Source: a virus | Strand: one strand, 5' to 3' | Length of the DNA stretch: 64,000 bases | Virus record (IMG/VR): IMGVR_UViG_3300047284_000202 | Location: 1 to 64,000 of that record | Shown here: piece after piece, positions 21,526-53,300 of the stretch | Layout: every line of letters starts with the position of its first letter | How positions within the stretch are numbered: the first letter of the stretch is position 1 | Notes under the pieces: generated by a model | The model's database searches: none | Told to the model about the DNA's origin: nothing | What the model saw: only the letters and a program-made list of their open reading frames with translations | Position numbers and translations under genes: made by a program

Positions 21526-22859
21526 GTGTACCTGCATCAGGAGTATCTCTTATCAAAGAGTTTGAACATTGTGAGTTAGTTGCATACCCTGACCCCAAAA
21601 CTAAGGGGAAACCATACACTGTGGGTTGGGGTAGCACTCGCAAAAAGGATGGATCTCCTTTTAAGTTGGGAGAAAGGATCACCCAGAAAGAAGCAGACGA
21701 ACTCTTTGATTATCAAATTCAAAATGAATTTCTCCCGCAACTGAAAAAGATTCCATATTGGGAGGAAATGAATGACAATCAAAGAGGGGCTTTACTTTGC
21801 TTTGCTTATAATCTTGGTGGAGATTTTTATGATCATCCTGACTTCAATACTATTACAAGGGTCTTGAAGAATAAGGAGTGGTCTAAGGTTCCTGATGCAC
21901 TCTATTTGTATAGAAATCCTGGAAGTGATGTGGAGGCAGGATTGGCAAGAAGGAGAAAGGCAGAAGGTAATATGTGGAAAAGTGGCTTAGTATCTACAAC
22001 AAAGGAGGTTGATATGTCAAAAATATTGCTAAATTTTTACAAGTTCTATGATGAGAACAATCAAAATCATGTTGCTGCTGTCAGTTTACTAGAGGCAGCA
22101 ATTCCAGAATACCTTAAACAGGATTCACCATGGGTTGTCACCTATAGAGGTGGTAATGCATCTGGTGGTCCTGTAGATTTGCATAAGTTCTTTGAACATT
22201 TCTCTGAACGCAATCCCAACCACGTTAAGGCAGTCTCACAACTTGAGGAGGCACTTGCCAAGACTCATCCCCAATGCCTCGTAGAGGACGGTGTAGGGGG
22301 GTCTACGGATGCTGCTTGGATCGAGAAGTACCGTACCAAGCCACCCATTCCATCTATTCTCGCAGTGCCCTACTTTAATCAAGTAGATAACTACAGAGAT
22401 GCACATAGAACTTGCAACAGTTCTTCATGTGCTATGTGTCTTGCTTTCCTCAAACCAGGAAGCATTAAAGGTGATGATGAATATGTTAAAAAAGTCTTTG
22501 CGATTGGTGACACAACAGATCATAGTGTCCAGACAAAGGTTCTTGCATCGTATGGTGTCAAGTCTCACTTCTCATATAATCTTTCATTTGCTGATCTGGA
22601 TAAGTCCCTTGCTGCTGGAAAACCAGTAGTTATTGGTATTCTCCATAGAGGTTCTTTGAGTGCTCCTACTGGGGGACATATGGTTGTAGTTATCGGTAAG
22701 AAGGGTGATGGGTATGTTGTCAACGATCCATACGGTTCATGTAACGATGGATATACTGGTCCTGTGACTAATGGTAAGGGTGCTGTCTATAGTAAGTCCA
22801 TGCTCAAAGCACGTTGGTGCCCTGGTGGTAACGATGGCTGGGGTCGTATTTTTGATTGA
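21522..22859 (+). CDS. Two-domain endolysin: GH24 muramidase + C39-like peptidase
   Basis: 445 residues. Residues 1-155 are a GH24 lysozyme: LIKEFEHCELVAYPDP with the catalytic Glu, YTVGWGST, and LLCFAYNLG. Residues 165-260 hold two copies of a helical repeat (LLNFYKFYDENNQNHVAAVS; LHKFFEHFSERNPNHVKAVS). Residues 280-445 are a C39-like cysteine peptidase: Cys in CNSSSCAM, His in GGHMVVVIG, Asp in VNDPYGS. Together they would cut the glycan and the peptide of host peptidoglycan. A perfect AAAGGAGG plus in-frame ATG at 22014 lies exactly between the domains. A holin-like gene follows. Confidence 0.88.
   Translation: MSVPASGVSLIKEFEHCELVAYPDPKTKGKPYTVGWGSTRKKDGSPFKLGERITQKEADELFDYQIQNEFLPQLKKIPYWEEMNDNQRGALLCFAYNLGGDFYDHPDFNTITRVLKNKEWSKVPDALYLYRNPGSDVEAGLARRRKAEGNMWKSGLVSTTKEVDMSKILLNFYKFYDENNQNHVAAVSLLEAAIPEYLKQDSPWVVTYRGGNASGGPVDLHKFFEHFSERNPNHVKAVSQLEEALAKTHPQCLVEDGVGGSTDAAWIEKYRTKPPIPSILAVPYFNQVDNYRDAHRTCNSSSCAMCLAFLKPGSIKGDDEYVKKVFAIGDTTDHSVQTKVLASYGVKSHFSYNLSFADLDKSLAAGKPVVIGILHRGSLSAPTGGHMVVVIGKKGDGYVVNDPYGSCNDGYTGPVTNGKGAVYSKSMLKARWCPGGNDGWGRIFD
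22001..22016 (+). promoter_or_regulatory. Internal ribosome binding site and in-frame start in the endolysin gene
   Basis: AAAGGAGG (22001-22008), five-base spacer, ATG 22014, in frame with the endolysin. Initiation here would give a separate 281-residue protein (22014-22859) with the two helical repeats and the C39-like domain but no muramidase. Confidence 0.6.
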
Positions 22860-22861
22860 TT

Positions 22862-23095
22862 ATGGCAAATACTAGTTATTACATATGGTTGTTAGTTTTT
22901 GGTATTGTTGGATATATCTGCATTCTAGATGAGAATGTACCAAAATTTCTTTATCTCATACTGCAGATAATCAGAATACAGATTGTTAGATTCTTCTGGG
23001 GTATTCGTCTCAGAGCAGGTTTAGAATTTCAAACCTGGAAGATGAAGAGAGATATGAAGAAGTGGATTAAAAATAAGGAACAGGAAGGGGGTTGA
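22862..23095 (+). CDS. Holin-like membrane protein
   Basis: 77 residues, ATG two bases after the endolysin stop. The N-terminal half has two hydrophobic segments (YYIWLLVFGIVGYICIL; FLYLILQIIRIQIVRFF) and the C-terminal half is strongly basic (WKMKRDMKKWIKNKEQ), the class II holin layout. The position right after the endolysin supports a holin or lysis-accessory role. A terminator overlaps its 3' end. Confidence 0.6.
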   Translation: MANTSYYIWLLVFGIVGYICILDENVPKFLYLILQIIRIQIVRFFWGIRLRAGLEFQTWKMKRDMKKWIKNKEQEGG

Positions 23096-23111
23096 CACCC
23101 CTTCTTTTTTT
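23083..23111 (+). terminator. Terminator after the lysis genes
   Basis: GGAAGGGG, seven-base loop, CCCCTTC and seven T. It overlaps the last codons of the holin-like gene. Confidence 0.8.
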
Positions 23112-23146
23112 CACTAGAATCAACCATGTGGAGGGTTGAGACAAAT

Positions 23147-23154
23147 TATAAATA
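23147..23154 (+). promoter_or_regulatory. Consensus T4-type late promoter TATAAATA
   Basis: 25 bases before the ATG at 23179 and after a terminator, so it should start a late transcript for the capsid-targeted protein. Confidence 0.7.
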
Positions 23155-23178
23155 CTTCTTAGAGAAAAAAGAGAATAA

Positions 23179-24222
23179 ATGAAAACATATACTCAGTTCA
23201 TTGAAGAGTGTTATGAATATATTCTTGAAGGTGCTTATAACGACGAACATGCACTTAGAAAGACTTGGAATCACTTCATGGTTCATAAAAAGCACGGTGC
23301 TGAAGTAAGACAACATCTAGATGCTGGTGATCATAAAGCAGCACTAGATCATATGAAGTCTGAAGTTGAGAAAGCAAAGTCAGATCCTAAGCATCCACTA
23401 AGTTTCGAGAAAGCTAAGAGAGGATTTAAAACTGGTAAGACTGATGCAGATAGAAAGTCATACCATCAAGAGTTAGATAATGCTGTACATGGTGCACATA
23501 CATTGGCAACTAAAGAAAGAAGAACTGCTAATGCTGCCAAGAAAGGTCTGCCAATGCAGAACACTGGAGCAGGTAAAGCACCAGTAACAGCATCATGGGA
23601 AAAGACTGGTGCTAAGAATACAACTCCTAAGAGAGATGTTGAAATCCATGATCCTAAGAATAAGAAGCATGGTATTGGTATTAGTATGAAGAAACCTGGT
23701 GGTTCTCAACTAATGTCAGGTGGTCCAGAGGAAACACATGCAACTATCAAACATGCTGCTAAGAGACATGCTGCAGAACTAGTTAAGTCTGGTAAATCAA
23801 AAGAAGAAGCAGATGTAGCACATAAGGATATTGTCAATAGATCTGAAAGAATTTCATGGTTAGTGAAGGGAATGGAGAAAGGATCTCCCGCAAGAAAGGC
23901 AGCAATTAAGCAAGCAGCACAGAGACACATTGACCACATGCATGACAATCATCCTGGACTAGAGAATCACATCGGCAGTGAGGCATCTAGTGGCAATCAG
24001 AAGTTCGGTAAGAGGGTCTCAGCAGGGTCTGGACAGGCATCTGTGGTTCTCAAGGGTGCAGACACCAAGAAGGGTGTGGAGGCAAAGGCACAGGACATCA
24101 GCAGAAGAGAACGTGCCCGTGGATTCAAGGGTAAGTTGAGAGCAGCATTACCTAAGAGTGACAAAGTAAATCCAAAGACAGGTAAGACTAGATCTGGTAA
24201 CGTTAAATTAGATGAAAGATGA
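23179..24222 (+). CDS. Basic protein with T4 internal-protein-type capsid-targeting peptide
   Basis: 347 residues. The start MKTYTQFIEECYEYILEGAY closely follows the T4 IPII/IPIII leader (MKTYQEFIAEA), and ILE/G is a plausible gp21 protease site. The mature part is rich in Lys, His and Ala. Between about 155 and 185 VEIHDPKNKKHGIGISMKK and GGSQLMSGGPEE recall nuclease-like folds with D-x(n)-S-x-K, but that is weak. A GC-rich patch runs from 23940 to 24125. It is probably a head-packaged DNA-binding protein, possibly enzymatic. Late promoter upstream. Confidence 0.7.
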   Translation: MKTYTQFIEECYEYILEGAYNDEHALRKTWNHFMVHKKHGAEVRQHLDAGDHKAALDHMKSEVEKAKSDPKHPLSFEKAKRGFKTGKTDADRKSYHQELDNAVHGAHTLATKERRTANAAKKGLPMQNTGAGKAPVTASWEKTGAKNTTPKRDVEIHDPKNKKHGIGISMKKPGGSQLMSGGPEETHATIKHAAKRHAAELVKSGKSKEEADVAHKDIVNRSERISWLVKGMEKGSPARKAAIKQAAQRHIDHMHDNHPGLENHIGSEASSGNQKFGKRVSAGSGQASVVLKGADTKKGVEAKAQDISRRERARGFKGKLRAALPKSDKVNPKTGKTRSGNVKLDER

Positions 24223-24368
24223 TTGATAGGAAAAAATTTACATGTCCTCATTGTGGTGGAGTATTTGGTATAGGACCGAAAGGTGAAGCATCTATTTACT
24301 CCTATAAAATCTATACCTCTCACGTAAATAATTGTGAGAAGAAACCAAAACAATGTAAAAGTTGCTAA
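24219..24368 (+). CDS. 49-residue zinc-finger-like protein
   Basis: ATG overlaps the previous stop (ATGA). Cys and His positions suit zinc binding: CPHCGG at the N-terminus, then HVNNC and CKSC at the C-terminus. No family recognised. It may bind nucleic acid. Confidence 0.55.
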   Translation: MIDRKKFTCPHCGGVFGIGPKGEASIYSYKIYTSHVNNCEKKPKQCKSC

Positions 24369-24397
24369 CTAAATATCTCCATAACGGAGGTCTTTTA

Positions 24398-24832
24398 ATG
24401 GGTAGTTATGAAAATCCTTGGATGTTTAATTCAGAAGTTTTTGAATCGGATAACATTGAAGATTATTTTGGTTTTGTTTATCATATCTACTGCACTGCAA
24501 CTGGTAAGTCGTATATTGGTAGAAAGTATTTCTGGAGTTTCCGCACACCGAAGGGCAAATCTAGAAAGGTTAAATCAGAGTCTGATTGGAAAAATTATTA
24601 TGGATCATGTCCCGAACTCAAAACCGATGTTAAACTTTGGGGCAAAGCATCCTGCAACAGAACAATACTTAGCCTCCATAAAACAAAAGGACAGTGCAAC
24701 TTCGAAGAAACAAAACAACTCTTCTTGAATAATGTACTGACAGAGGCACTGGAGGATGGAAGTCCTGCCTACTACAATTCAAATATTCTCGGAAGATACA
24801 TGCGTAAAGATTACTTTGGGAAGGGGGCTTGA
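24398..24832 (+). CDS. GIY-YIG-like putative endonuclease (SegE-like)
   Basis: 144 residues from the ATG behind GGAGGT. YFGFVYHIYCTATGKSYIGR gives a VYH..YIG version of the GIY-YIG motif, followed by KYFWSFRTPKGKSRK with the basic residues expected on the next helix. Proteins of this kind in cyanophages are often labelled SegE-like. The family cuts DNA, frequently as free-standing homing endonucleases. It sits at the border of the tRNA cluster. A sigma70-type promoter overlaps its 3' end. Confidence 0.7.
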   Translation: MGSYENPWMFNSEVFESDNIEDYFGFVYHIYCTATGKSYIGRKYFWSFRTPKGKSRKVKSESDWKNYYGSCPELKTDVKLWGKASCNRTILSLHKTKGQCNFEETKQLFLNNVLTEALEDGSPAYYNSNILGRYMRKDYFGKGA

Positions 24833-24858
24833 CAGGGCAGGCAGGGGTGCTATATAAT
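24829..24858 (+). promoter_or_regulatory. Sigma70-type promoter at the head of the tRNA cluster
   Basis: TTGACA (24829-24834), 18-base spacer, TATAAT (24853-24858). Both boxes are perfect. It drives the 52-residue gene and tRNA-Arg, probably early in infection by host RNA polymerase. Confidence 0.8.
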
Positions 24859-24884
24859 TACTAGGTAAGCAACGGAGACGACCG

Positions 24885-25043
24885 ATGACTGACAAAGAGA
24901 TTCAAGATTATTTCTACGATTCTCAAATTTATCAATCTACTGTTGATGAACTAGTCGATAAACTCCATGAACTTATCTCTCAGGGTGATTTCTGCAAAGC
25001 ACAATTGGTTGCTGAGACTATCCGAGAGTTGCAATTGGGATAG
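24885..25043 (+). CDS. 52-residue acidic helical protein overlapping a tRNA
   Basis: ATG 27 bases after the -10 box, with GGAG upstream. Sequence MTDKEIQDYFYDSQIYQSTV then VDKLHELISQGDFCKAQLVA suggests three helices. Its last codons and TAG (25041-25043) are the first seven bases of tRNA-Arg, so processing of the tRNA would remove the stop codon from the mRNA. Function unknown. Confidence 0.6.
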   Translation: MTDKEIQDYFYDSQIYQSTVDELVDKLHELISQGDFCKAQLVAETIRELQLG

Positions 25044-25110
25044 TAGCTCAGTGGAATAGAGCAACTGCCTTCTAAGCAGTCGGTCGATGGTTCGAATCCA
25101 TCCTATCTCG
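25037..25110 (+). tRNA. tRNA-Arg(TCT)
   Basis: Acceptor GGGATAG/CTATCTC, D arm GCTC..GAGC, anticodon loop CTTCTAA, T arm with TTCGAAT. Discriminator G, no encoded CCA. Reads AGA, a codon abundant in this AT-rich genome. Confidence 0.93.
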
Positions 25111-25112
25111 TA

Positions 25113-25200
25113 GTCACGGAGAGACTTAAAAAGTACTGGTGGAGTCAATTTTGACCCTATTATGCCCGTCACGGATGGACGTTAACAGCACTGGTCGGGA
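25113..25200 (+). repeat. Two imperfect direct repeats, 55 bases apart
   Basis: Copy A starts at 25113 and copy B at 25168, both with GTCACGGA. They share GAC-TTAA-A-AG-ACTGGT-G over about 32 bases. Copy A continues into the palindrome GTCAATTTTGAC. The stretch has no gene. It lies between tRNA-Arg and the HNH endonuclease, so it may be debris of insertion events there. Confidence 0.45.
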
Positions 25201-25239
25201 ACCCCCCTACGGAGTTTCTAGTTTCTCTCAAAAACTGGT

Positions 25240-25275
25240 GTATCCTATATAAATAAATATAGTTATATAGGATAC
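25240..25275 (+). promoter_or_regulatory. Late promoter inside a ribosome-site-sequestering hairpin
   Basis: GTATCCTATATAA (25240-25252) and TTATATAGGATAC (25263-25275) are a perfect 13-bp inverted repeat ending one base before the HNH ATG. The right arm contains the only ribosome-site-like AGGA. TATAAATA (25248-25255) sits across the left arm and loop. A read-through transcript would fold and hide the start, while a late transcript starting around 25261 would lack the left arm. The same logic is documented for T4 I-TevI. Confidence 0.65.
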
Positions 25276-25276
25276 A

Positions 25277-25711
25277 ATGGCAACTAGAGAACAAAAGTTA
25301 GAAGCAAAAAGACGCTACTATCAAAAAAATAAAAACAAACTAAACTCAGAATCAAGAGAACTCAATACTAGATTGAGATATGAAAAGAAAAACTTTATCA
25401 TAGAATCTCTTGGATCTAAGTGTTGTGAGTGTGGGATTACTGATTGTCTAGAAATAGATCATATCAATCCTGGATTAAAAAAAGATAGAAGATGTCTTTA
25501 TGTTTGTTCTTGGGACAGAATCAAAAGTGAAATGGACAACCTCCAACTTCTCTGTAGTGCATGTCACCATGAAAGATCTCAACTTCAAAAAGATGCTTCG
25601 TGGTTTTATTTTAAAAATCTTCCCCTAGAAGAACAAAATAAAATAATGAAGCAGTTTAAAGAGGGAGGTTCTAACTTGCCTTCCTGGTCCCCGCAAGATA
25701 AGGGACAATAA
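25277..25711 (+). CDS. HNH endonuclease (candidate homing endonuclease)
   Basis: 144 residues. A basic N-terminal helix (EAKRRYYQKNKNK) precedes the HNH core: KCCECGI, LEIDHINPG and LLCSACHHERSQ, giving two CxxC pairs and the D-H dyad. The family cuts DNA with one metal and often acts as a mobile free-standing homing endonuclease. Its position in a tRNA cluster, the repeats upstream and the T4-like leader hairpin all point that way. The start is fixed by the hairpin. Confidence 0.85.
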   Translation: MATREQKLEAKRRYYQKNKNKLNSESRELNTRLRYEKKNFIIESLGSKCCECGITDCLEIDHINPGLKKDRRCLYVCSWDRIKSEMDNLQLLCSACHHERSQLQKDASWFYFKNLPLEEQNKIMKQFKEGGSNLPSWSPQDKGQ

Positions 25712-25712
25712 A

Positions 25713-25774
25713 AATTCTTGCTGGTGCGGATGGGACTCTCTCCCGCCTGGTTTCCAATTTCCAGTCAAAGAATT
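25713..25774 (+). ncRNA. Candidate structured leader upstream of the CpeT-like gene
   Basis: An outer stem AATTCTT (25713-25719)/AAGAATT (25768-25774) encloses two hairpins: one closed by GGGA/TCCC with flanking GC pairs, and one closed by CTGG/CCAG. Together they form a three-way junction. The palindrome AACTTAAGTT then abuts the ATG at 25799. It could be a cis-acting leader or a remnant RNA gene; no family recognised. Confidence 0.4.
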
Positions 25775-25798
25775 GGTGGCGAGCCTGGAACTTAAGTT

Positions 25799-26242
25799 AT
25801 GGAATTCTCTATTGTTGGACAGTACTTGAATCAAAAACAAGCATTTTCTAACCCTGCTTTTTATGCCATGATTCGTGTCATATATAAACAGGTGGGAGAT
25901 AACAAACTTAAGTCCGAAAACTGGTACGAATATTTGTACCCCTCAGGGGAACCTTATAAACAGGAATATCATTCTTATGATATAATATCCCCTACAGAAG
26001 TTGATTTTCAATCCTATAATATGGACTGGGAACCAACCTGTAAATTTAAGTTCACATGGGATGGGAACTTCTGGGTTGCTGAACCATGTGGTGAGTGCGT
26101 AGTAAAGGATATAAAAATAAACAGTACGGTCAAGTTCAATGATCAGGTTTACATTTCCGAAGATGTAGGTTATGATCGAACAGGAAACGTAGTGTTTGGT
26201 CGAGTGGGAATGCCTTTCATTTTTGATAGGATTCCCATTTGA
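25799..26242 (+). CDS. cpeT: CpeT/CpcT-like phycobiliprotein lyase
   Basis: 147 residues. The pattern VGQYLNQKQAFSNPAFYAMI (G-x-Y-x-N-x-x-Q-A-x-x-N-P), then WYEYLYPSGEPYKQEYHSY, VAEPCGECVV and DVGYDRTGNVVFGRVGMPF matches phage CpeT-family proteins as I remember them. T-type lyases attach phycoerythrobilin or phycocyanobilin to a Cys of the phycobiliprotein beta subunit. Cyanophages of Synechococcus carry such genes, perhaps to keep phycobilisomes working. Substrate is unknown. It lies between tRNA genes, next to an HNH gene. Confidence 0.75.
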   Translation: MEFSIVGQYLNQKQAFSNPAFYAMIRVIYKQVGDNKLKSENWYEYLYPSGEPYKQEYHSYDIISPTEVDFQSYNMDWEPTCKFKFTWDGNFWVAEPCGECVVKDIKINSTVKFNDQVYISEDVGYDRTGNVVFGRVGMPFIFDRIPI

Positions 26243-26247
26243 TTCCT

Positions 26248-26327
26248 GCCCAAGTGGTGAAATTGGTATACACGCTTGACTTAGGATCAAGTGCTTCGGC
26301 GTGGAGGTTCGAGTCCTCTCTTGGGTA
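26248..26327 (+). tRNA. tRNA-Leu(TAG)
   Basis: Acceptor GCCCAAG/CTTGGGT, anticodon loop CTTAGGA, variable arm TGCTTCGGCG of class II type, T loop TTCGAGT. Reads CUA. Discriminator A, no encoded CCA. Confidence 0.92.
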
Positions 26328-26329
26328 TT

Positions 26330-26401
26330 ACTCTGGTAGTCTATTGGTAAGGACGGGTGGACAACACACATGGAAACTAGGTTCGATTCCTAGACAGAGG
26401 A
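26330..26401 (+). pseudogene. Degenerate tRNA-like element
   Basis: Has a good T arm (CTAGG TTCGATT CCTAG), a D arm (GTCT..GGAC) and a 5-bp acceptor core (CTCTG/CAGAG). The anticodon region (GGGTG GACAACA CACAT) pairs poorly and lacks the universal T33, so no anticodon can be assigned. Probably a decayed tRNA. Confidence 0.45.
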
Positions 26402-26423
26402 AATAAGGTAAGGAAAGTAAAAG

Positions 26424-26504
26424 GAGCATGGGAACCGTATGGAGATACCGCACCTGCCTTGTTAACACCCCTCAAGCCTATCAACGATGCTCAAACAGAG
26501 GGGT
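26424..26504 (+). ncRNA. Candidate pseudoknot RNA upstream of tRNA-Gly
   Basis: GAGCAT (26424-26429) pairs with ATGCTC (26487-26492), and ACCCCTC (26467-26473) pairs with GAGGGGT (26498-26504). The two helices interleave as an H-type pseudoknot. A small hairpin GTAT-ggag-ATAC lies inside. It ends five bases before tRNA-Gly and contains no convincing gene. Confidence 0.4.
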
Positions 26505-26508
26505 CACT

Positions 26509-26580
26509 GCGGATTTAATTCAGTGGTAGAATGGCTGCCTTCCAAGCAGTTCGTCAGGGGTTCGAATCCCCTAATCCGCT
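26509..26580 (+). tRNA. tRNA-Gly(TCC)
   Basis: Acceptor GCGGATT/AATCCGC, anticodon loop CTTCCAA, T arm AGGGG TTCGAAT CCCCT. Reads GGA. No encoded CCA. Confidence 0.94.
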
Positions 26581-26595
26581 TGAGTTCTAAACTCT

Positions 26596-26603
26596 TATAA
26601 ATA
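26596..26603 (+). promoter_or_regulatory. Consensus T4-type late promoter TATAAATA
   Basis: Lies 23 bases before the ATG at 26626, between tRNA-Gly and a short gene that ends at a terminator: a self-contained late unit in the tRNA cluster. Confidence 0.55.
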
Positions 26604-26625
26604 AATTCATTAAAGGTCGAAAATC

Positions 26626-26724
26626 ATGAACACTGCATTTATCCAAGAGCATATTAAGTTTAACGATTACCGTTGGTATATCGTGGGAACCCCCTTTTGC
26701 GATAAATCAGTAAAACTTATGTAA
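26626..26724 (+). CDS. 32-residue peptide with its own late promoter
   Basis: ATG behind AAAGGT, TAA at 26722-26724. Sequence begins MNTAFIQEHIKFNDYRWYIV; no family recognised. The support is contextual: consensus late box, ribosome site, short frame and a strong terminator form a complete unit. Confidence 0.4.
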   Translation: MNTAFIQEHIKFNDYRWYIVGTPFCDKSVKLM

Positions 26725-26748
26725 GACCACTGATACATCAGCAAAACT

Positions 26749-26783
26749 TAAGGGGGGCAGGTTGCAAAACCACCCCCCTTTTG
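26749..26783 (+). terminator. Terminator within the tRNA cluster
   Basis: GGGGGG..GGTT, loop GCAA, AACC..CCCCCC, then TTTT. A second hairpin GGTGGG-AGA-CCCACC (26800-26814) follows, without a T tract, just before tRNA-Lys. Confidence 0.75.
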
Positions 26784-26839
26784 CTATGGTAGATTCATCG
26801 GTGGGAGACCCACCAGCACCTCGAAAATTTAAACCTCAT

Positions 26840-26911
26840 GGGTCTGTAACTCAACGGTAGAGTAACGGGCTTTTAACCTGGAAGTTGTGGGTTCGAGTCC
26901 CACCAGACCCA
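26840..26911 (+). tRNA. tRNA-Lys(TTT)
   Basis: Acceptor GGGTCTG/CAGACCC, anticodon loop CTTTTAA, T arm GTGGG TTCGAGT CCCAC. Reads AAA/AAG. No encoded CCA. Confidence 0.92.
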
Positions 26912-26914
26912 TAT

Positions 26915-27005
26915 GAGAGAGTGGCTACTGTTGGCAATACGTGTGGCTGCGGTCTGTAAAACCGTTACATAAGAACCATCGGGGGTTCAATTCCCTCCTC
27001 TCTCA
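26915..27005 (+). tRNA. tRNA-Tyr(GTA)
   Basis: Acceptor GAGAGAG/CTCTCTC, anticodon loop CTGTAAA, long class II variable arm as usual for bacterial tRNA-Tyr, T loop TTCAATT. Discriminator A. Confidence 0.92.
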
Positions 27006-27009
27006 CCTT

Positions 27010-27081
27010 GGCCCTATAGTGAAGTGGCTATCACGCATCTCTGTCCAAGATGTATCACGAGTTCGAATCTCGTTAGGGTCG
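27010..27081 (+). tRNA. tRNA-Asp(GTC)
   Basis: Acceptor GGCCCTA/TAGGGTC, anticodon loop CTGTCCA, T arm ACGAG TTCGAAT CTCGT, discriminator G. Confidence 0.92.
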
Positions 27082-27084
27082 TTG

Positions 27085-27255
27085 AGAGTCAGTATTCTAA
27101 CTCTCACGCATTTCTTAGAGTTTGCCAGTGTGTAGAGAAATGTTGTAGCAAGAACTGGAATTGGGGAGGGATTTCTAACCACCATCGGATGATGGCAGGA
27201 TTCATAAGGCTACGAAGCGTAATCCGTAAGTAACTTCGTGTGGGATACCCCTCCC
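27085..27255 (+). ncRNA. Candidate structured RNA between tRNA-Asp and tRNA-Glu
   Basis: No gene in these 170 bases. Seen: hairpin GAGAGT/ACTCTC (27085-27106), whose right arm can instead pair with AGAGTT near 27117; a domain closed by GGGAGGG (27164-27170)/CCCTCCC (27249-27255); inside it CCATC-ggat-GATGG (27182-27195) and ACGAAG/CTTCGT (27212-27239). No tRNA T arm. It could be a phage small RNA or a processing element. Confidence 0.45.
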
Positions 27256-27259
27256 ATCT

Positions 27260-27331
27260 GGTCCTATCGTCTAGTGGTGAGGACATCACTCTTTCACAGT
27301 GAAGACACGGGTTCAAATCCCGTTAGGACTA
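27260..27331 (+). tRNA. tRNA-Glu(TTC)
   Basis: Acceptor GGTCCTA/TAGGACT (one G-T pair), anticodon loop CTTTCAC, T arm ACGGG TTCAAAT CCCGT. Confidence 0.92.
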
Positions 27332-27334
27332 TAT

Positions 27335-27410
27335 CGGGGAGTAGCTCAGTTGGTAGAGCACATGTCTGAAGAACATGGTGTCGGTGGTTCAATTCCACCC
27401 TCTTCGACCA
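27335..27410 (+). tRNA. tRNA-Phe(GAA), CCA encoded
   Basis: Acceptor CGGGGAG/CTCTTCG with two G-T pairs, anticodon loop CTGAAGA, T loop TTCAATT, then A and an encoded CCA (27408-27410). Confidence 0.92.
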
Positions 27411-27483
27411 GGAAACATAGCTTAGTTGGTAAAGCATTCGACTGATAATCGAAAGAGCACTGGTTCGAGTCCAGTTGTTTCCA
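27411..27483 (+). tRNA. tRNA-Ile(GAT)
   Basis: Begins on the base after tRNA-Phe. Acceptor GGAAACA/TGTTTCC, anticodon loop CTGATAA, T arm ACTGG TTCGAGT CCAGT. Confidence 0.94.
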
Positions 27484-27485
27484 TT

Positions 27486-27568
27486 GGAAGATTGGCAGAG
27501 TGGTTAATGCAGAGGTTTGCTAAACCTTGAGGGTCACACCTCCGTTGGTTCGAATCCAACATCTTCCG
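27486..27568 (+). tRNA. tRNA-Ser(GCT)
   Basis: Acceptor GGAAGAT/ATCTTCC, anticodon loop TTGCTAA, long variable arm (GAGGGTCACACCTCC), T loop TTCGAAT, discriminator G. Confidence 0.94.
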
Positions 27569-27571
27569 TTT

Positions 27572-27645
27572 GGCAGTATAGCTCAGTCTGGTAGAGCACG
27601 GGTCTCATATTCCTATGGACGGTGGTTCAAATCCATCTACTGTCA
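27572..27645 (+). tRNA. tRNA with CAT anticodon (Met or Ile2), weak anticodon stem
   Basis: Acceptor GGCAGTA/TACTGTC, D arm GCTC..GAGC, T loop TTCAAAT, loop CTCATAT. The anticodon stem CGGGT/TCCTA has only three pairs, the terminal ones being C-A and T-T. CAT may be elongator Met or lysidine-modified Ile2; sequence alone does not decide. Confidence 0.75.
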
Positions 27646-27646
27646 T

Positions 27647-27720
27647 GTGACGTTAGCCTAGTGGTAAGGCAGTGGTTTGTGGAACCACCTAGATGGGTTC
27701 AATTCCCATACGTCACCCCA
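27647..27720 (+). tRNA. tRNA-His(GTG), CCA encoded
   Basis: Acceptor GTGACGT/ACGTCAC, anticodon loop TTGTGGA, T arm ATGGG TTCAATT CCCAT, then C and CCA. The C discriminator is typical of His. Confidence 0.93.
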
Positions 27721-27721
27721 T

Positions 27722-27795
27722 TGAGAAATCGTCTAACGGTAGGACACCTCCCTTTGAAGGAGTTTATCTAGGTTCGAGTCCTAGTTTCTCAGCCA
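27722..27795 (+). tRNA. tRNA-Gln(TTG), CCA encoded
   Basis: Acceptor TGAGAAA/TTTCTCA, anticodon loop CTTTGAA, T arm CTAGG TTCGAGT CCTAG, then G and CCA. Confidence 0.93.
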
Positions 27796-27870
27796 GTTGG
27801 GTTGGTCTAATGGTAAGATGCAGGTCTCCAAAACCTTGCGATGGGGGTTCAAATCCCTCACCCTTCGCCA
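27796..27870 (+). tRNA. tRNA-Trp(CCA), CCA encoded
   Basis: Anticodon loop CTCCAAA, T loop TTCAAAT, discriminator G and encoded CCA. The acceptor GTTGGGT/ACCCTTC carries two adjacent T-T mismatches at pairs 2 and 3, an unusual weak spot. Confidence 0.85.
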
Positions 27871-27871
27871 T

Positions 27872-27946
27872 CCTCTCTTAGCTCAGTGGATATAGAGCAC
27901 TTGACTACGGATCAAGGTGTCCTAGGTTCGAATCCTAGAGAGAGGG
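27872..27946 (+). tRNA. tRNA-Arg(ACG)
   Basis: Acceptor CCTCTCT/AGAGAGG, anticodon loop CTACGGA (A34 normally becomes inosine), T arm CTAGG TTCGAAT CCTAG. Confidence 0.93.
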
Positions 27947-27947
27947 C

Positions 27948-27976
27948 TTGACAGACTGCTTCTGGTCTGTTACTAT
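27948..27976 (+). promoter_or_regulatory. Sigma70-type promoter with internal inverted repeat
   Basis: TTGACA (27948-27953), 17-base spacer, TACTAT (27971-27976), two bases after tRNA-Arg. ACAGAC..GTCTGT forms an inverted repeat from the -35 box through the spacer, possibly an operator. Confidence 0.6.
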
Positions 27977-28001
27977 ATACTATGTGATCAGGGACAAATT
28001 T

Positions 28002-28157
28002 ATGTCACTATTATCAAAACAAGATCGAGACCTAACGGTTGAAGCAATTGAGTTCTATCTTTTTAATAAAAAGTTTGATCTCTCTGAGGAGAAAATCATG
28101 CAACTCAATGCCCTTAGGAACTGGATCCAATTAGAAAATTTTAAGCATGAAAATTAA
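28002..28157 (+). CDS. 51-residue hypothetical protein
   Basis: ATG 26 bases after the promoter at 27948. Sequence begins MSLLSKQDRDLTVEAIEFYL; three probable helices, no motif. Overlaps the next gene by 11 bases. A TTG further upstream is inside the promoter and is not favoured. Confidence 0.55.
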   Translation: MSLLSKQDRDLTVEAIEFYLFNKKFDLSEEKIMQLNALRNWIQLENFKHEN

Positions 28158-28320
28158 TCTCTGGTATTGTGAAACGATGAAACAATGGAGGTGGACTCTA
28201 ATTGATGATCATCGTCCAATTGTTAAAATGGAATCTGGTCAACAACCAGATCTTCGAGTAGCAATGAATGACATTGCTACTACTGTTGAATATATGTTAG
28301 AAAATAGTGGGGAAGTGTAA
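28147..28320 (+). CDS. Conserved cyanophage small protein overlapping a tRNA
   Basis: 57 residues starting MKINLWYCETMKQWRWTLID, then MESGQQPDLRVAMNDIATTV. I recall very similar short proteins in other cyanophages; function unknown. The last 15 bases, including TAA, are also the 5' end of tRNA-Met (28306), a second case of a gene ending inside a tRNA. Confidence 0.65.
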   Translation: MKINLWYCETMKQWRWTLIDDHRPIVKMESGQQPDLRVAMNDIATTVEYMLENSGEV

Positions 28321-28380
28321 CGGTTGCACAGAAGTCTCATAAGCTTCAGGTAGATGGTTCAATTCCATCCCCCGCCACCA
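28306..28380 (+). tRNA. tRNA with CAT anticodon (Met or Ile2), CCA encoded
   Basis: Anticodon arm GAAGT CTCATAA GCTTC, T arm GATGG TTCAATT CCATC, acceptor AGTGGGG/CCCCGCC with an A-C mismatch at the first pair, then A and CCA. It lacks the three G-C pairs of an initiator anticodon stem, so elongator Met or Ile2 is more likely. Confidence 0.82.
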
Positions 28381-28386
28381 AATCAT

Positions 28387-28458
28387 TCCCCTATAGCTCA
28401 ACGGCAGAGCAGAGAGCTGTTAACTCTAAGGTTCCTCGTTCGAATCGAGGTGGGGGAG
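28387..28458 (+). tRNA. tRNA-Asn(GTT)
   Basis: Acceptor TCCCCTA/TGGGGGA, anticodon loop CTGTTAA, T loop TTCGAAT, discriminator G. Last tRNA of the main cluster. Confidence 0.93.
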
Positions 28459-28493
28459 TCCGTGTGAAGGAAGTGTTAAAGGAGAAGTAAACT

Positions 28494-28841
28494 ATGAATT
28501 CAAATAATTTTGAGCAACTTGATTTTAAAAACTTAGAATCAAAATCTAGGTTTGCTTCTCTTTTTCCAAAAGATATTAAATTCTTAATTAAAGCAGTTGA
28601 GAATTTTTCAGTAGGGTCTGATACAGACCCTATTTCTGGATTCAGTGATTCTGTTATGATGAAAGAAAGAGTTCTTCTTAAACTTGAAGCATATCTAGAA
28701 CTCTTCGGAGGCAAAGATCCAGAAATGATTGATCCAGAATTTATTAAACATCATATGCCCGATGAATTCAAACAAAAATATTTTGAACAAATTCAAAATC
28801 TTCATCAAAAGCACACTAAGAAATTTCCTGCGAGATACTGA
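28494..28841 (+). CDS. 115-residue hypothetical protein
   Basis: ATG behind AAAGGAGAA. Helical and charged (FASLFPKDIKFLIKAVENF; MMKERVLLKLEAYLELFG). No recognised domain. A Cys-rich reading frame in the +1 frame (28762-28998) overlaps and follows its end. Confidence 0.6.
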   Translation: MNSNNFEQLDFKNLESKSRFASLFPKDIKFLIKAVENFSVGSDTDPISGFSDSVMMKERVLLKLEAYLELFGGKDPEMIDPEFIKHHMPDEFKQKYFEQIQNLHQKHTKKFPARY

Positions 28842-28998
28842 TAGTATAAATTCCAGTTCAAGCAGACAGTGCTCAAAGTGTCATGAGGTGAAACCCCTTG
28901 ACAGGGACCACTACCAGGTGGTAAAGTACTTTCGTACAGGATTCTCCTACTACTGCAATGAGTGTAGCAAACCTAAACCCCGTGAAAGTTCTTCTTGA
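28762..28998 (+). CDS. Zinc-ribbon small protein, start uncertain
   Basis: The informative part is downstream of 28841: CSKCHEVKPLDRDHYQ and YYCNECSKPK give two CxxC pairs about 25 residues apart, the zinc ribbon often found at the N-terminus of HNH endonucleases. The first ATG in frame is 28762, inside the previous gene, without a clear ribosome site. It may be a truncated nuclease remnant. Codons from 28870 to 28980 are GC-rich. Overlaps the next gene by 41 bases. Confidence 0.45.
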   Translation: MNSNKNILNKFKIFIKSTLRNFLRDTDSINSSSSRQCSKCHEVKPLDRDHYQVVKYFRTGFSYYCNECSKPKPRESSS

Positions 28999-29221
28999 AA
29001 GAGAAGGTTATCGATTTGTAGAAAAAGGTATTCTAGAAATTAATGGTAAACCAGACTTTCGTTTGCAGAAACAAAACTACTATACCAAACGGTGGTATGA
29101 CATTTATCTTTTTGATAATGGTATGCAATGCTCTCTAGCAATGGAGGATATTGAATATGCAAAATGGTTAGATCCTGATCGAGTTCCATGTTACATTAAG
29201 GGAGATGACGACGATGAATGA
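28958..29221 (+). CDS. 87-residue conserved hypothetical protein
   Basis: MSVANLNPVKVLLEREGYRF then NGKPDFRLQKQNYYTKRWYD and an acidic end DDDDE. Alternating strand-like segments suggest a small alpha/beta fold. No function known. Overlaps the following gene at the acidic tail. Confidence 0.55.
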   Translation: MSVANLNPVKVLLEREGYRFVEKGILEINGKPDFRLQKQNYYTKRWYDIYLFDNGMQCSLAMEDIEYAKWLDPDRVPCYIKGDDDDE

Positions 29222-29417
29222 TCGTGCTTTGTATCAACTTGAACGTGCTATTGATGCACTTTCACAAATGGCAAAATATCTAAGGGAAGAACAGACACCT
29301 GTTTCATTTACTGATCTGAGTTCTGGATATAATCATTCTTCTTACTGGTATGATTTTGATCGAAATCAACCAATCAATTTTGCTTCTTCTAGTTCTCCTG
29401 ATGTTATTGTTTTCTAA
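29214..29417 (+). CDS. 67-residue hypothetical protein
   Basis: Start at 29214 because GGGAG lies eight bases before; an ATG at 29205 is the alternative. An N-terminal helix (YQLERAIDALSQMAKYLREE) is followed by a Ser/Tyr/Asn-rich tail. Function unknown. Confidence 0.5.
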   Translation: MNDRALYQLERAIDALSQMAKYLREEQTPVSFTDLSSGYNHSSYWYDFDRNQPINFASSSSPDVIVF

Positions 29418-29419
29418 TT

Positions 29420-29665
29420 ATGCTCCGTATCAAAGTCGAACTTGAACCTTTCGGTATGACGATTGGTGGTAAACAACTTGCAGAGATTCGTATCTGGAAT
29501 TCCACTGGAAAGGGTCTCACTGCAAAACATAATTATGAATATGAAGTATACGAACCAACTCCTCTGAATGGAGAACCTATCATGAAACGTGGTAGTGTGA
29601 AAGGTTACGATAGACAGCAACCAGTTCTCAATCTGGTCAAAGAGGTCTTGACAGATTTGGACTGA
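29420..29665 (+). CDS. 81-residue conserved hypothetical protein
   Basis: ATG two bases after the previous stop. Beta-rich sequence (RIKVELEPFGMTIGGKQLAE; YEYEVYEPTPLNGEPIMKRG) ending in a helix. It resembles small proteins next to hli/petF in other cyanophages, from memory; function unknown. The hli promoter lies in its last codons. Confidence 0.6.
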   Translation: MLRIKVELEPFGMTIGGKQLAEIRIWNSTGKGLTAKHNYEYEVYEPTPLNGEPIMKRGSVKGYDRQQPVLNLVKEVLTDLD

Positions 29666-29677
29666 TCTCTATATAAT
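29648..29677 (+). promoter_or_regulatory. Sigma70-type promoter for hli-petF
   Basis: TTGACA (29648-29653), 18-base spacer, TATAAT (29672-29677), 23 bases before the hli ATG. Perfect boxes suggest strong early transcription. Confidence 0.8.
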
Positions 29678-29699
29678 ACAGTCTGTTAAAAAACTTAAC

Positions 29700-29918
29700 A
29701 TGACCACAACGACTAATGAATTTGGCCAACAAAACATGTTTGCCAAAGAACCAACAATGTACATTTCTGAAGAGGTAATTGAAGCTATGGATAACGGTGT
29801 ATACGAAACTCACAACGAAAAAGCAGAACGTCTGAATGGTCGTCTTGCCATGATTGGATTTGTTGCTGCTGTCGGTGCATATCTAATGACTGGTCAGATT
29901 ATTCCTGGGATTCTCTGA
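29700..29918 (+). CDS. hli: High-light-inducible protein
   Basis: 72 residues. A polar N-terminal 38 residues precede the single chlorophyll a/b-binding helix: EKAERLNGRLAMIGFVAAVG, the E-x-x-N-G-R-x-A-M-x-G-F signature, ending MTGQIIPGIL. Hlips sit in the thylakoid membrane, bind chlorophyll and carotenoid and protect photosystems under stress. Carried by most T4-like cyanophages together with psbA. It has its own strong early promoter. Confidence 0.95.
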   Translation: MTTTTNEFGQQNMFAKEPTMYISEEVIEAMDNGVYETHNEKAERLNGRLAMIGFVAAVGAYLMTGQIIPGIL

Positions 29919-29931
29919 CATTCGATTGACA

Positions 29932-30018
29932 ATGACAGAACTCTTATTTACAATGACTAGTGTTGCCTTCTTTGTATTGTTGGCAGCATCCGTAGAAAAA
30001 CTTTGTGAAACTTACTAA
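29932..30018 (+). CDS. 28-residue single-helix peptide between hli and petF
   Basis: ATG 29932, TAA 30016-30018 overlapping the petF ATG. Sequence begins [20 protein letters not shown]; one transmembrane helix with a short charged tail. The size and place among photosynthesis genes recall small photosystem subunits, but I recognise none. Confidence 0.45.
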
Positions 30019-30492: not shown

Positions 30493-30526
30493 TTGACAGG
30501 GTTTCCTGACCGTGCTATTATAAATA
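30493..30526 (+). promoter_or_regulatory. Stacked early (sigma70) and late promoters of psbA
   Basis: TTGACA (30493-30498), 17-base spacer, TATTAT (30516-30521). The -10 box overlaps TATAAATA (30519-30526). psbA could thus be read by the host sigma factor early and by the phage late sigma (gp55 type) later. Confidence 0.7.
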
Positions 30527-30588
30527 AATGTTAAGGGATGGAAACATTCTTTAATAATTTATTCCCCCAATTACTCGGAGTATTATCT

Positions 30589-31668
30589 ATGGTTGCTACT
30601 ATTGCTCAACGTAGGCAAGAAAGCACATGGGAACAGTTCTGTGAGTGGGTAACATCAACCGATAACCGTCTTTATGTCGGTTGGTTCGGAGTCCTGATGA
30701 TTCCTTGCCTGCTTGCTGCTACTATCTGTTTCATTGTTGCTTTTATTGCTGCACCTCCCGTCGATATTGACGGTATCCGTGAACCTGTTGCTGGTTCACT
30801 CATGTACGGAAACAACATTATCTCTGGTGCTGTTGTTCCCTCGTCTAATGCTATTGGACTGCACTTTTATCCCATTTGGGAAGCACTTAGCCTCGATGAG
30901 TGGCTATATAATGGTGGACCATTCCAACTGGTCGTCTTCCATTTTCTAATTGGTATCTATGCCTACATGGGTCGTGAATGGGAACTATCTTACCGACTGG
31001 GTATGCGTCCTTGGATTTGTGTTGCCTACTCTGCACCCGTTGCTGCTGCTAGCGCAGTGTTTCTGGTCTATCCCTTCGGTCAAGGATCCTTCTCTGATGC
31101 AATGCCTCTGGGGATTTCGGGAACTTTCAACTACATGCTTGTTTTCCAGGCAGAACACAACATTCTCATGCATCCTTTCCACATGCTGGGAGTTGCTGGG
31201 GTCTTCGGTGGTTCTCTTTTCTCTGCTATGCACGGATCTCTTGTCACCTCTAGTCTTGTACGTGAGACTACAGAAACTGAATCCCAAAACTACGGATACA
31301 AGTTTGGACAAGAAGAAGAGACCTACAACATTGTCGCAGCTCATGGATACTTTGGACGACTCATTTTCCAGTATGCAAGCTTCAACAACAGTCGCAGTCT
31401 TCACTTTTTCCTTGCTGCTTGGCCTGTTGTTGGTATTTGGTTTACTGCTCTTGGTGTTAGCACTATGGCATTCAACTTGAATGGTTTCAACTTTAACCAG
31501 TCGATCGTTGATAGTCAGAACCGTGTGATTCCTACTTGGGCAGACATCCTGAACCGTGGTGGTCTGGGTATGGAAGTGATGCATGAACGTAATGCTCACA
31601 ACTTCCCTCTTGACCTTGCTGCTGCTGATATGACTCCTGTAGCACTCACAGCACCTGCAATCGGTTGA
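30589..31668 (+). CDS. psbA: Photosystem II reaction centre protein D1
   Basis: 359 residues from ATG 30589. This start puts TyrZ at residue 161 and the pheophytin-contact residue at exactly 130, as in canonical D1; ATG 30538 would add 17 hydrophobic residues. Residue 130 is Glu (MGREWELSY), the D1:2-type form. QEFCEW-type start ([12 protein letters not shown]), the [13 protein letters not shown] helix and the C-terminal [10 protein letters not shown] processing region are intact. Phage D1 replaces fast-turning host D1 so photosynthesis continues during infection. No intron is seen. An HNH gene follows. Confidence 0.97.
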
Positions 31669-31681
31669 TACTCGGATTCCT

Positions 31682-31698
31682 AATAAACGACGTTTATT
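31682..31698. repeat. Palindrome after psbA
   Basis: AATAAACG-A-CGTTTATT, 8-bp arms around one base, 14 bases after the psbA stop and before its terminator. Possibly an RNA 3'-end structure or a nuclease recognition site. Confidence 0.4.
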
Positions 31699-31710
31699 GA
31701 GAAAACAACT

Positions 31711-31738
31711 AAACCACTCCTTCGGGGGTGGTTTTTTT
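31711..31738 (+). terminator. psbA terminator
   Basis: AAACCAC..CC, loop TTCG, GG..GTGGTTT and seven T. Ends the psbA transcript. Confidence 0.85.
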
Positions 31739-31743
31739 GTAAC

Positions 31744-31751
31744 AATAAATA
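31744..31751 (+). promoter_or_regulatory. T4-type late promoter box AATAAATA
   Basis: NATAAATA 21 bases before the HNH ATG at 31772, directly after the psbA terminator. Confidence 0.55.
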
Positions 31752-31771
31752 AATGTAAGTTGCAAATACTT

Positions 31772-32146
31772 ATGGGTCCCCAACACTCGTTTAAGTCCTA
31801 CTTGTACAATCTGGAAACAACAAGTAAAGCAGAAGCAAAACGAATGTGGAAAAGAAGTATAAAAGAACAATGGGAACATAAGTGTGCCTACTGTGAGTCA
31901 GAAGAAAATATCACACTAGATCATATTCTTCCTCAGTGTAAGGGTGGACTTGATGTTAAGACTAACGTAGTTGCTTGCTGTCATTCTTGCAATCAGGATA
32001 AGGGACATACACCTTGGGAAGAGTGGTACTTCAATCAACATTTCTTTTCTCATGAAAATTATGAGAAGATTAATAACTGGATGAAACCAGATAGACCTAC
32101 TAATCTTTATGCATATCCACCCAGAAAGAATTACATTCCAAAGTAA
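31772..32146 (+). CDS. HNH endonuclease downstream of psbA
   Basis: 124 residues; ATG 31772 is chosen because the frame upstream runs through the terminator. HNH core: KCAYCESEE, ITLDHILPQCKGG, NVVACCHSCNQDKGHTPWEE, with paired CxxC and D-H. A free-standing HNH gene next to an intronless psbA recalls the homing endonuclease F-CphI reported beside intron-bearing psbA in phage S-PM2. It may promote psbA-region transfer between phages; that is inference. Confidence 0.85.
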   Translation: MGPQHSFKSYLYNLETTSKAEAKRMWKRSIKEQWEHKCAYCESEENITLDHILPQCKGGLDVKTNVVACCHSCNQDKGHTPWEEWYFNQHFFSHENYEKINNWMKPDRPTNLYAYPPRKNYIPK

Positions 32147-50344: not shown

Positions 50345-53300
50345 TGGCACAGATTAAAGTTAGGTCATTCGTAAAGGTAAATCCCACTACTAAAGCTAGT
50401 AGTGGGATTGCTGCGTCTTATGCAGCAACTATAAAAGGTATCAATAGAATGGGAGGGGCAGTAGAATCCCTCGGTAAAAATTTAGAAACGGTAGATAAGT
50501 TATTTAAATTTAGAAATGAATTCTTGATTCAATCGCAGGCAAAACGAATCAAGTTAGAAGATAGGTTAAGTGCAGCAGATGCAAGAGATGAAAAACTATC
50601 TGAGCAGAAACAGAAACGTTGGTGGAGACGTTTCTTAGATCAAAAAGCAGAAGATGCTAGTGAGAAAGCAGTTAAGGATCCTGAAAAGGTAATTGATAAG
50701 AAGGCAGATATAATCAAAAAAGCATTATCACCACTTGAGAAGTTCTTCAAGGTCTTCAATGGTGTGTTGGAACCAATCATGAGAATGTTTGTTCTCATGC
50801 CAATTCTCAATTGGATCACAGGGCAGGATACTGGAAAGTTAGCAAAAACAATAGGTAATGTAATAACCATTGTTAGTTTTGTTCGAAAACTTGTTGGATT
50901 TGGTGTAGGTACATTATTAGATGGACTATCAAATCTATTTGGTGGTTTTGATAGAATTAAGCATGGAAATGTTGCTGGTGTACTGCAGGGATTTGTTGGT
51001 GCATTACAATTAGTCAGTGGTGTTGCTTTAGTTAAGGCAGCACAGTATATCTTCATGCCTTGGAAACTCATTGGTGATGTTAAGTGGGTAACCAGTCTGT
51101 TCACCGAATGGGGTAAGATTACTGGTGAGGCACAAGGTGCCGCAATGAATAAAGACATTGCTGGGTATGTTGATAAGAATGGTAATGTAATCTCTAAGGA
51201 AGATTTTGAGAAAGCAAAAGCAAAAGCACGAAAGCATGATGAAAAGGTTGCCAAAAGGCAAGGTAAGGGATGGGCATACAGTGGTGGTCAAGATTACCTA
51301 GGTGATAGGTATCGTGCACAATATGGTGGACGTAAGAAAGGATTCCTAGCACGAAATGCTCAACGTGGTAGAATTGCATTTAAACGTGGAACTAGAGGAA
51401 TTCGTGGTCAATTTAAAATGGCTGGGAATTGGATGGCAGCCAATCCAACAAAGGGTAATGCTATTTTCTCAGTTGTAGGTGGTGTAACTAGAGCAGCTAC
51501 TGGTTTAATGTCTGGTGAAGGTGGTGCAGCAGTTGGTGCTGGAGTTGGACAGGCTGCAGGTGGCATTGCTGGTTTTGCTCTTGGTAATATGCTTCTTCCT
51601 GGTATTGGAGGAATCATTGGTTCTGCTTTAGGATCATTCTTAGGTGAATGGGTTGGGACCAAATTGGGTCCAATGATTGAACCAATTATCAAACCAATTG
51701 GTAATGCATTTAAACTTGGATTTGATATTATTTCTCCTGCTGTTGGGTTTATTGCTGGTGAAGCAGGAGAGATGTTCTCTGCATTATTTGATGGTCTCGG
51801 TGCTCTATTCCAACTTTCAGGGTATATTGCTAAAGTTGGAATGGATGTGCTCAAATTTGCTTGGGAAAGTTCATTAATCAAAAAGGCAGTTGATGGATTG
51901 GTTTGGATTTGGAAAAATAAAGATAATATTGGTGGTGCAGTAAGAGATGTTTTAGCTACTGGTGCTAAGGGACTTGCTGATAGTTTGACCTTTAACGTAT
52001 TTGATTTTGATAGACAAAATAAGAAAGCAATTGGTGGTCCTGTTCCAATAATGGCAGCAGGTGGTGTTCTGGAAACAGATAGTCCAGAAGTGATGGGATT
52101 GAAGTATGCTGGATCTGCTATCATTGCAACTACTTCTTCTACACTGGACAGACTTGGTATTGTTGGTAATATTGTCAAGTCTGCAATTGCACCTCAAGTT
52201 AGTTTTTATGGTAATTTATTTGGTGTGAGTAAGGTTGCAATTTCTGGTGACAGAATGCAATCTCAGATCAATAAACCTTCTGCAGACCTAAACGTTGGAA
52301 GTCAAAGTGCTCCATCATCAGATAACAGTGCTGCGAGAAAATTAATTGGTGAAGGATCTGTAAATATTCTTACGGCACAACCAGATAAATTTAGTCCAAT
52401 AAATCAAAAAACCACCAGAGGATTACTTGCTGACATTTATAATGCTTTTGTGTCTGCACGTTTTGGTGGAGGTGGTGGAACTACCAACAATCCTGCTGTT
52501 CCAGGTACAGATGCCGCATTAACTGCAGCAGATTTAAAAGCAATTCAGGCATCTTCTGCAGATAAGAGGGCAGCAGCACACCTAGCAACTTTGGAAGCTA
52601 GTGCACCTCAACATGTTGCTGATGTTTATCAGGTAATTTTAAACAGAGCAGCAAAACAATCTGGTGGTATTCCAGCAGTTATTACGGCAAGAGAGCAGTT
52701 CTCCCCATATTCTGCGGCATTATATGGTTCCAGTGCTGATGGTGCTGCAGCATCTAAGTATGGGTCATTGAAGTTAACTAAGAAGGAACTGTTTGAACTT
52801 GCTGCTAAACCAGATGGAATACAGCAATTAACAAAGAGATTCCAAGCAGGCAATCCCAGTGTTGCTGCAAAAGTTCTTGCTGACTTTGAAATGAATGGTC
52901 CACTATCACAATCTGCTAAGAAATTTGTTGGTGGTGCTCAATATTTTATGGGGTACAAAGTTACTGCTGTTGATAGAAGAAGACCAGATGGTGGAAACTG
53001 GATTCGTGATAAGTATGCAGTTGGTGGTGTTTACAAGTATGATAATTTGATGGATTATTATGGAAGCAGAGGTAAAACTGGGCAGCAACTGAAGAAAGCA
53101 TATATGATACAGGACATTGAAGGTACAGAACTAAAAAGAAAATTTGCTGCTGGTGGTGTTTATAATTACAATTTAATACCAGCACAGGCATATGGTGCTT
53201 CTAGAGATGGTGGTCGTAGACAACATGCTGGACAGGATTTAGATATTTCTGGTAATGAAGCAGTACAAACATTTGGTGGTGGAGTTGTTGTTGGTGTATA

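Follow-up and report, generated by a model that had tools for sequence, protein, structure and literature searches.

The window analysed here, the whole 64,000-nucleotide stretch of IMG/VR virus record IMGVR_UViG_3300047284_000202 (positions 1 to 64,000), contains a free-standing HNH endonuclease gene that lies between two tRNA genes and interrupts a wcaG-type structured RNA (Table 1). The encoded protein matches the PHROG HNH profile (1e-15) and, slightly below the cut-off of 21.4 bits, Pfam family PF01844 (21.3 bits). Residues D61, H62, N88, H97, C49, C52, C93 and C96, which we take to be the HNH catalytic and zinc residues, are invariant in 10 of 10 HNH proteins. Scanning IMG/VR yielded nine loci that encode the protein, and a profile scan added one clear relative (L165, 70% identity); ten weaker profile matches (L166-L175, 28–40% identity) were left out of the leader comparison. 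In the search of cultured phages just Streptomyces phage Mildred21 (two records) matched the gene, at 32%, so the useful relatives are all IMG/VR contigs. No Rfam intron family matched positions 22000-30000 up to E 1, and a group I intron or other self-splicing element at the HNH locus was rejected.

Several other features surround this locus. A SegE-type GIY-YIG gene is present at 24362-24829 (PF19835, 1.3e-51); of the 15 phage records listed (758 match), 14 label the homologue 'NAD synthetase', which is likely a propagated misannotation. A match to the abiF RNA (RF03085, 50.7 bits) at 26330-26504 adjoins a tRNA-like stretch scoring slightly below the tRNA cut-off. Within 30519-32145, the box TATAAATA precedes the ATG of psbA (30538-31665) by 11 nt, and an HNH-like ORF recognized by eye at 31772, after psbA, has AATAAATA in a hairpin.

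Table 1. Positions of features at the HNH locus, numbered from the first base of the window
Feature	Position	Strand	Evidence and remarks
Sigma-70-like (early-type) promoter, TTGACA-18-TATAAT	24829..24858	+	5' of tRNA cluster; 12/12 consensus positions, consensus match only
tRNA-Arg(tct)	25036..25111	+	
Left part of interrupted structured-RNA region	25112..25239	+	Contiguous with wcaG core in HNH-free phages
Leader hairpin, left arm	25239..25252	+	Perfect inverted repeat, RNA folding, covariation
Putative late-promoter box TATAAATA	25248..25255	+	Overlapped by AATAAATA at 25252-25259
Leader hairpin, right arm	25263..25276	+	SD AGGA inside at 25269-25272
HNH endonuclease gene, 144 aa	25277..25711	+	Profile match; last ~7 codons in pre-existing wcaG RNA sequence
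wcaG RNA (RF01761)	25685..25790	+	Covariance model 79.9 bits (gathering 42); 5' end overlaps HNH gene
Pseudoknot stem S1, 5' strand GTCCC	25687..25691	+	Pairs with 25702-25706
Pseudoknot stem S2, 5' strand GCAAGA	25693..25698	+	Pairs with 25716-25721
CpeT-like gene	25799..26242	+	PF06206, 1.7e-9; directly 3' of wcaG RNA
tRNA-Leu(tag)	26247..26328	+	

Leader hairpin and late box of the HNH gene

A preliminary description of this DNA had reported a perfect inverted repeat beside the ATG that buries the only AGGA of the leader. Both are found: arms 25240-25252 and 25263-25275 pair without a mismatch, the pair T25239/A25276 extends the stem to 14 bp around a loop of 10 nt, the hairpin abuts the ATG, and the sole AGGA lies in the right arm. 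The same description had placed a late box across the left arm and the loop, and TATAAATA indeed has five bases in the arm and three in the loop. A late promoter NATAAATA has been reported in S-PM2 (PMC2984593), and AATAAATA is a second NATAAATA box in the leader. From these two overlapping boxes, late transcription could start near 25261 or near 25265, and the left arm would be absent from the late RNA either way. TATAAATA is commoner in the window than expected (nine copies, against 3.65 +/- 1.91 by chance), and two of the nine copies precede virion genes, namely a head protein at 15505 and a gp5-like hub/lysozyme at 59391. The predicted RNA fold of 25240-25300 has a free energy of -15.2 kcal/mol (z -5.4), equalled in none of 200 shuffles. 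The 64 kb contain two centres of perfect inverted repeats whose arms reach 13 or more and whose loops measure 3–14 (25239-25276 and 50380-50409); 40 shuffles of the entire sequence that preserved dinucleotides gave none.

The preliminary description had proposed a comparison with hairpins before HNH genes in related phages, and a hairpin over a NATAAATA box is conserved in 11 of 11 genes (the window gene and its ten relatives). In the covariation alignment of ten leaders (nine distinct, L165 left out), 96.6% of pair cells are formed across the nine distinct leaders, and four pairs are changed on both sides, making ten such cells. The covariation score of 0.361 is reached by none of 500 shuffles (0.221 +/- 0.030), a control that, according to the tool's own warning, is inflated by the relatedness of the leaders; slid controls, with 30–59% paired, point the same way. 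G-U pairs, which keep RNA pairing and break DNA symmetry, occur in seven of the nine distinct leaders. The hairpin is thus kept in every homologue with compensatory changes and G-U pairs, which argues that it acts as RNA.

No terminator-like site was found between the early-type promoter at 24829-24858 and the hairpin. When the late RNA is modelled as starting 5 nt after the box, the predicted cost of opening the SD of the window gene is 11.9 kcal/mol in read-through RNA versus 1.0 in late RNA, in agreement with the earlier proposal that the former hides the start and the latter frees it. Across the 11 leaders the predicted values are 6.1–13.3 versus 0.1–1.8 kcal/mol, with only moderate late accessibility predicted in some (probability of being open 0.05 in L011 and L012, and 0.20 in the window). 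Shuffling only the late-absent part of the window leader abolishes the effect (ddG 15.0 versus 3.9, p 0.003). Among 27 T4 starts from two stretches, the positive controls have ddG values of 12.2–12.6 (e), 9.7 (segB) and 10.2 (49), denV with its distant box has 0.4, and mobD and 22 other starts have no box within 70 nt. The left-shuffle p values of e, segB and 49 are 0.005–0.15, so the left-shuffle control alone is not decisive.

Insertion of the HNH gene into the wcaG RNA

The preliminary description overlooked that the HNH gene interrupts a wcaG-type RNA and that the 3' end of the gene also belongs to this RNA. Parts of 25112-25276 match 32 phage records, and the part left of the hairpin is continuous with the wcaG core in four HNH-free phages (S-RIM4, S-B64, S-MS29 and DSL-LC03). 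Blast between occupied and HNH-free loci shows clean insertions. L006 differs from L148 by an insertion of 452 nt, the target retaining 1 nt between flanks that are 83% (283 nt) and 96% (157 nt) identical; the corresponding insertion and target values are 459/-1 for L005/L138, 484/-1 for L008/L016, 485/0 for L008/L092 and 481/-2 for the window and L094. Window positions 25685-25790 are 96% identical to HNH-free L149. Occupied and empty alleles with matching flanks, a mark of homing endonuclease genes, are thus found for the HNH gene.

The right junction lies about seven codons before the HNH stop, so the protein's end, ...SPQDKGQ*, is pre-existing RNA sequence. In 10 of 24 tail-scan loci (L135, L138, L141, L145, L146, L148, L149 and L151-L153) the tail stretch has no overlapping endonuclease ORF. 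The stop codon at 25709-25711 sits between the two strands of S2, inside the wcaG pseudoknot, whose two stems covary: 22 rows, 19 of them distinct, are 99.5% paired, with both partners altered in nine cells and none of 500 shuffles doing as well. The change between Ser138/Gly143 and Cys138/Ala143 in the HNH protein tracks the flip between C-G and G-C in S1 in all nine rows that have both residues. L165 keeps the hairpin and has lost the pseudoknot. Among the 80 wcaG pattern-scan matches listed, an HNH relative lies no more than 900 nt upstream in at least two (L059 and L063), and at least two have a GIY-like gene (L079 and L090).

The RNA itself may extend beyond the part covered by Rfam. A 28-nt unit is present twice left of the hairpin, at 25113 and 25168, and repeated modules consisting of a hairpin with GGTGGAGTC / GGTCGGGA are seen upstream of wcaG in the window (25112-25239) and in L015-L094, which suggests a longer RNA built from such modules, with wcaG as one of its components. 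A strong terminator-like hairpin with a T run follows within 170 nt in 57 of the 75 wcaG RNAs with enough sequence (among the matches listed, L015-L094); a TANNAT hexamer comes next at 48 of these 57 sites, and the same detector found none in 354 control stretches. The wcaG RNA may end an upstream transcript, or the terminator-like stem may be a riboswitch terminator; these stems question a plain 5'-leader view of wcaG.

Mutually unrelated ORFs other than endonucleases also end inside the wcaG P1 region (L048, L071 and L080, of 166–168 aa, and L195 and L196); they include an Sf-FS3 protein annotated as prolyl 4-hydroxylase and a 251-aa S-CAM3 protein ending in SPQDKG*. RNA-encoded tails therefore extend beyond endonucleases. 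The annotated 'endonuclease' of S-RIM32 was dropped as a parallel, being a TTG-started ORF that runs through wcaG.

Leaders of other endonuclease genes

A gene with no relation to the HNH gene, tentatively described as GIY-YIG-like, occupies the same wcaG site with the same kind of tail in L079, L090, L136, L140, L177 and L178. In its leader TTCATAT pairs with ATATGAA over the start codon, and TATAAATA lies on the left arm; homologues away from wcaG (L182-L185) showed no hairpin. A Pfam search assigned the protein to no family, and sequence searches of the PDB returned nothing useful. The AlphaFold model (mean pLDDT 70.6, pTM 0.36) weakly resembles the GIY-YIG domain of UvrC (Foldseek probability 0.97, E 0.094, 20% identity). 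Different hairpins, over TATAAATA or GATAAATA, precede the HNH genes that neighbour such modules in L059, L063 and L105. Taken together, the GIY-YIG-like gene and three other HNH lineages have unrelated hairpins over NATAAATA, with 20–24 nt from box to ATG (p 0.003–0.023).

We surveyed 1.53 Mb of loci and took the 209 genes that have NATAAATA 5–39 nt ahead of their ATG. They fall into 112 protein lineages, of which 60 have mainly TATAAATA; representatives of all 60 were scanned with PHROG, giving 36 endonuclease lineages and 24 others, with the GIY-YIG-like lineage counted as 'other' by rule. With labels set by a fixed rule on the PHROG tables, not blind to ddG, a median ddG of at least 8 is found in 16 of the 36 endonuclease lineages versus 1 of the 24 others (Fisher p 0.0009; Mann-Whitney p 0.005), and in 12/28 versus 1/16 (p 0.015) in the loci of the wcaG scan alone, among the matches listed. 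The contrast is weaker at a threshold of 5 (21/36 versus 7/24, p 0.036; in the wcaG-scan loci alone, among the matches listed, 16/28 versus 5/16, p 0.125). The hairpin is not universal, the median ddG being below 5 in 15 of the 36 endonuclease lineages with TATAAATA. Start-hiding leaders are thus commoner in endonuclease genes than in other genes with the same box, and many endonuclease genes lack them. One non-endonuclease family (13 leaders with AATAAATA), outside the 60 mainly-TATAAATA lineages, has a median ddG of 11.7 because a terminator-like stem precedes its start.

A probable late-only switch and its alternatives

The best supported explanation, and probably the correct one, is a T4-type late-only switch on a cyanophage HNH gene, of which we infer the timing and the effect on translation from the sequence. 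On this view a wcaG-type RNA of a T4-like cyanophage has taken up, at its 5' edge, a free-standing HNH gene of homing type, which carries its own putative late promoter within the hairpin that hides its start. RNA read through from early promoters further upstream would fold the hairpin and stay untranslated. The gp55-type late polymerase would start at TATAAATA (near 25261) and produce mRNA without the left arm, in which the AGGA would be free, and the endonuclease would be made late. This reading supposes that both promoters are used, that the hairpin represses, and that the protein is an active endonuclease capable of homing.

The dyad could instead be a protein-binding site in the DNA, for example for endonuclease autorepression, with incidental RNA pairing. 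The operator at which I-TevI represses its own synthesis overlaps the late promoter of that gene (PMC2988022), and the present dyad overlaps the late box. We consider an operator unlikely, because the G-U pairs of most leaders break DNA symmetry while preserving the RNA stem, the dyad abuts the ATG with the SD always inside, and the leader, as an operator or homing site, is dissimilar to five empty target sites on both strands (p 0.27–0.98). Long perfect stems can serve as an RNase III site, a 5' stabilizer or an attenuator, and read-through RNA of a tRNA operon must be processed. A processing or stability hairpin with no timing role is nevertheless quite improbable: no T run follows the stem, where the terminator search was negative, and the fixed 20–24 nt spacing and the burial of SD or start in unrelated genes would be left unexplained. 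That the hairpin is a by-product of A+T-rich sequence around the late box is very improbable. The box is self-similar (TATA/ATAT) and the background ddG in the window leader is about 4 kcal/mol; however, the shuffled windows contain no such repeat, compensatory changes are seen, and all but one of the non-endonuclease TATAAATA lineages fall short of a median ddG of 8.

The late-only switch has known counterparts. PMC2988022 describes a class of hairpins hiding the ribosome-binding site or start on free-standing endonucleases, including segB and mobE. The combination of hairpin and late promoter on such genes is therefore already published: the switch put forward in the preliminary description is supported as a prediction, and its use on a free-standing gene, even one in a tRNA cluster, is not new in kind. 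T4 segB is likewise free-standing and between tRNA genes, and the hairpin that hides its start contains NATAAATA at 22 nt from the ATG; it differs in belonging to the GIY-YIG family and in lying directly beside tRNA-Arg, not in a wcaG RNA. Aeh1 mobE is also a free-standing HNH gene, with an RBS-sequestering hairpin shown to reduce translation (reviews PMC2988022 and PMC3014915), but it sits in a ribonucleotide reductase gene. T4 e and 49 share the late box in the left arm and the same ddG range, and are phage genes proper, not mobile. I-TevI in the td intron resembles the window gene in having a late promoter in the hairpin and an ORF whose 3' end is part of a structured RNA; according to the same two reviews, td splicing suffers once its hairpin is deleted, since the intron is then entered by ribosomes. 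The host RNA harmed by early translation is there a group I intron, whereas the host RNA in the window is wcaG.

The last codons and stop of the intruder are taken from the wcaG pseudoknot, so translation and wcaG folding would compete on the same molecule, and early translation should unfold the pseudoknot. The wcaG-type RNAs may be landing sites for free-standing homing endonuclease genes, and, by analogy with td, the late-only hairpin may have been selected for keeping ribosomes off wcaG early, a proposal that we regard as possible though doubtful. In the literature searched, which mostly excluded subscription journals, we found no link between wcaG RNA and endonucleases and, by title or start of abstract, no hairpin switch of homing endonucleases in cyanophages; 'HNH' is absent from the main text of Weinberg 2010 (PMC2864571) and of the S-CREM1 paper (PMC9964418). 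What is new here is an HNH gene inserted in the wcaG RNA, with its last ~7 codons forming covarying pseudoknot strands and its stop inside; a GIY-YIG-like gene, unrelated to the first, that occupies this site too, has its tail encoded by that RNA as well and hides its start in a hairpin of unrelated sequence that covers a late box; and a survey in which endonuclease genes are enriched for such leaders, though many lack them.

These results would extend the T4 hairpin switch to cyanophages, where several unrelated endonuclease lineages appear to have it, each with a hairpin sequence of its own, and they tie mobile endonucleases to the unexplained wcaG RNA. They also offer a genetic handle on wcaG: alleles with and without the insert, amino-acid substitutions that follow the RNA pairing, and a predicted clash of translation with folding that can be put to the test. 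If true, the principle of 'better late than early', put forward for I-TevI and td, would apply to a candidate riboswitch.
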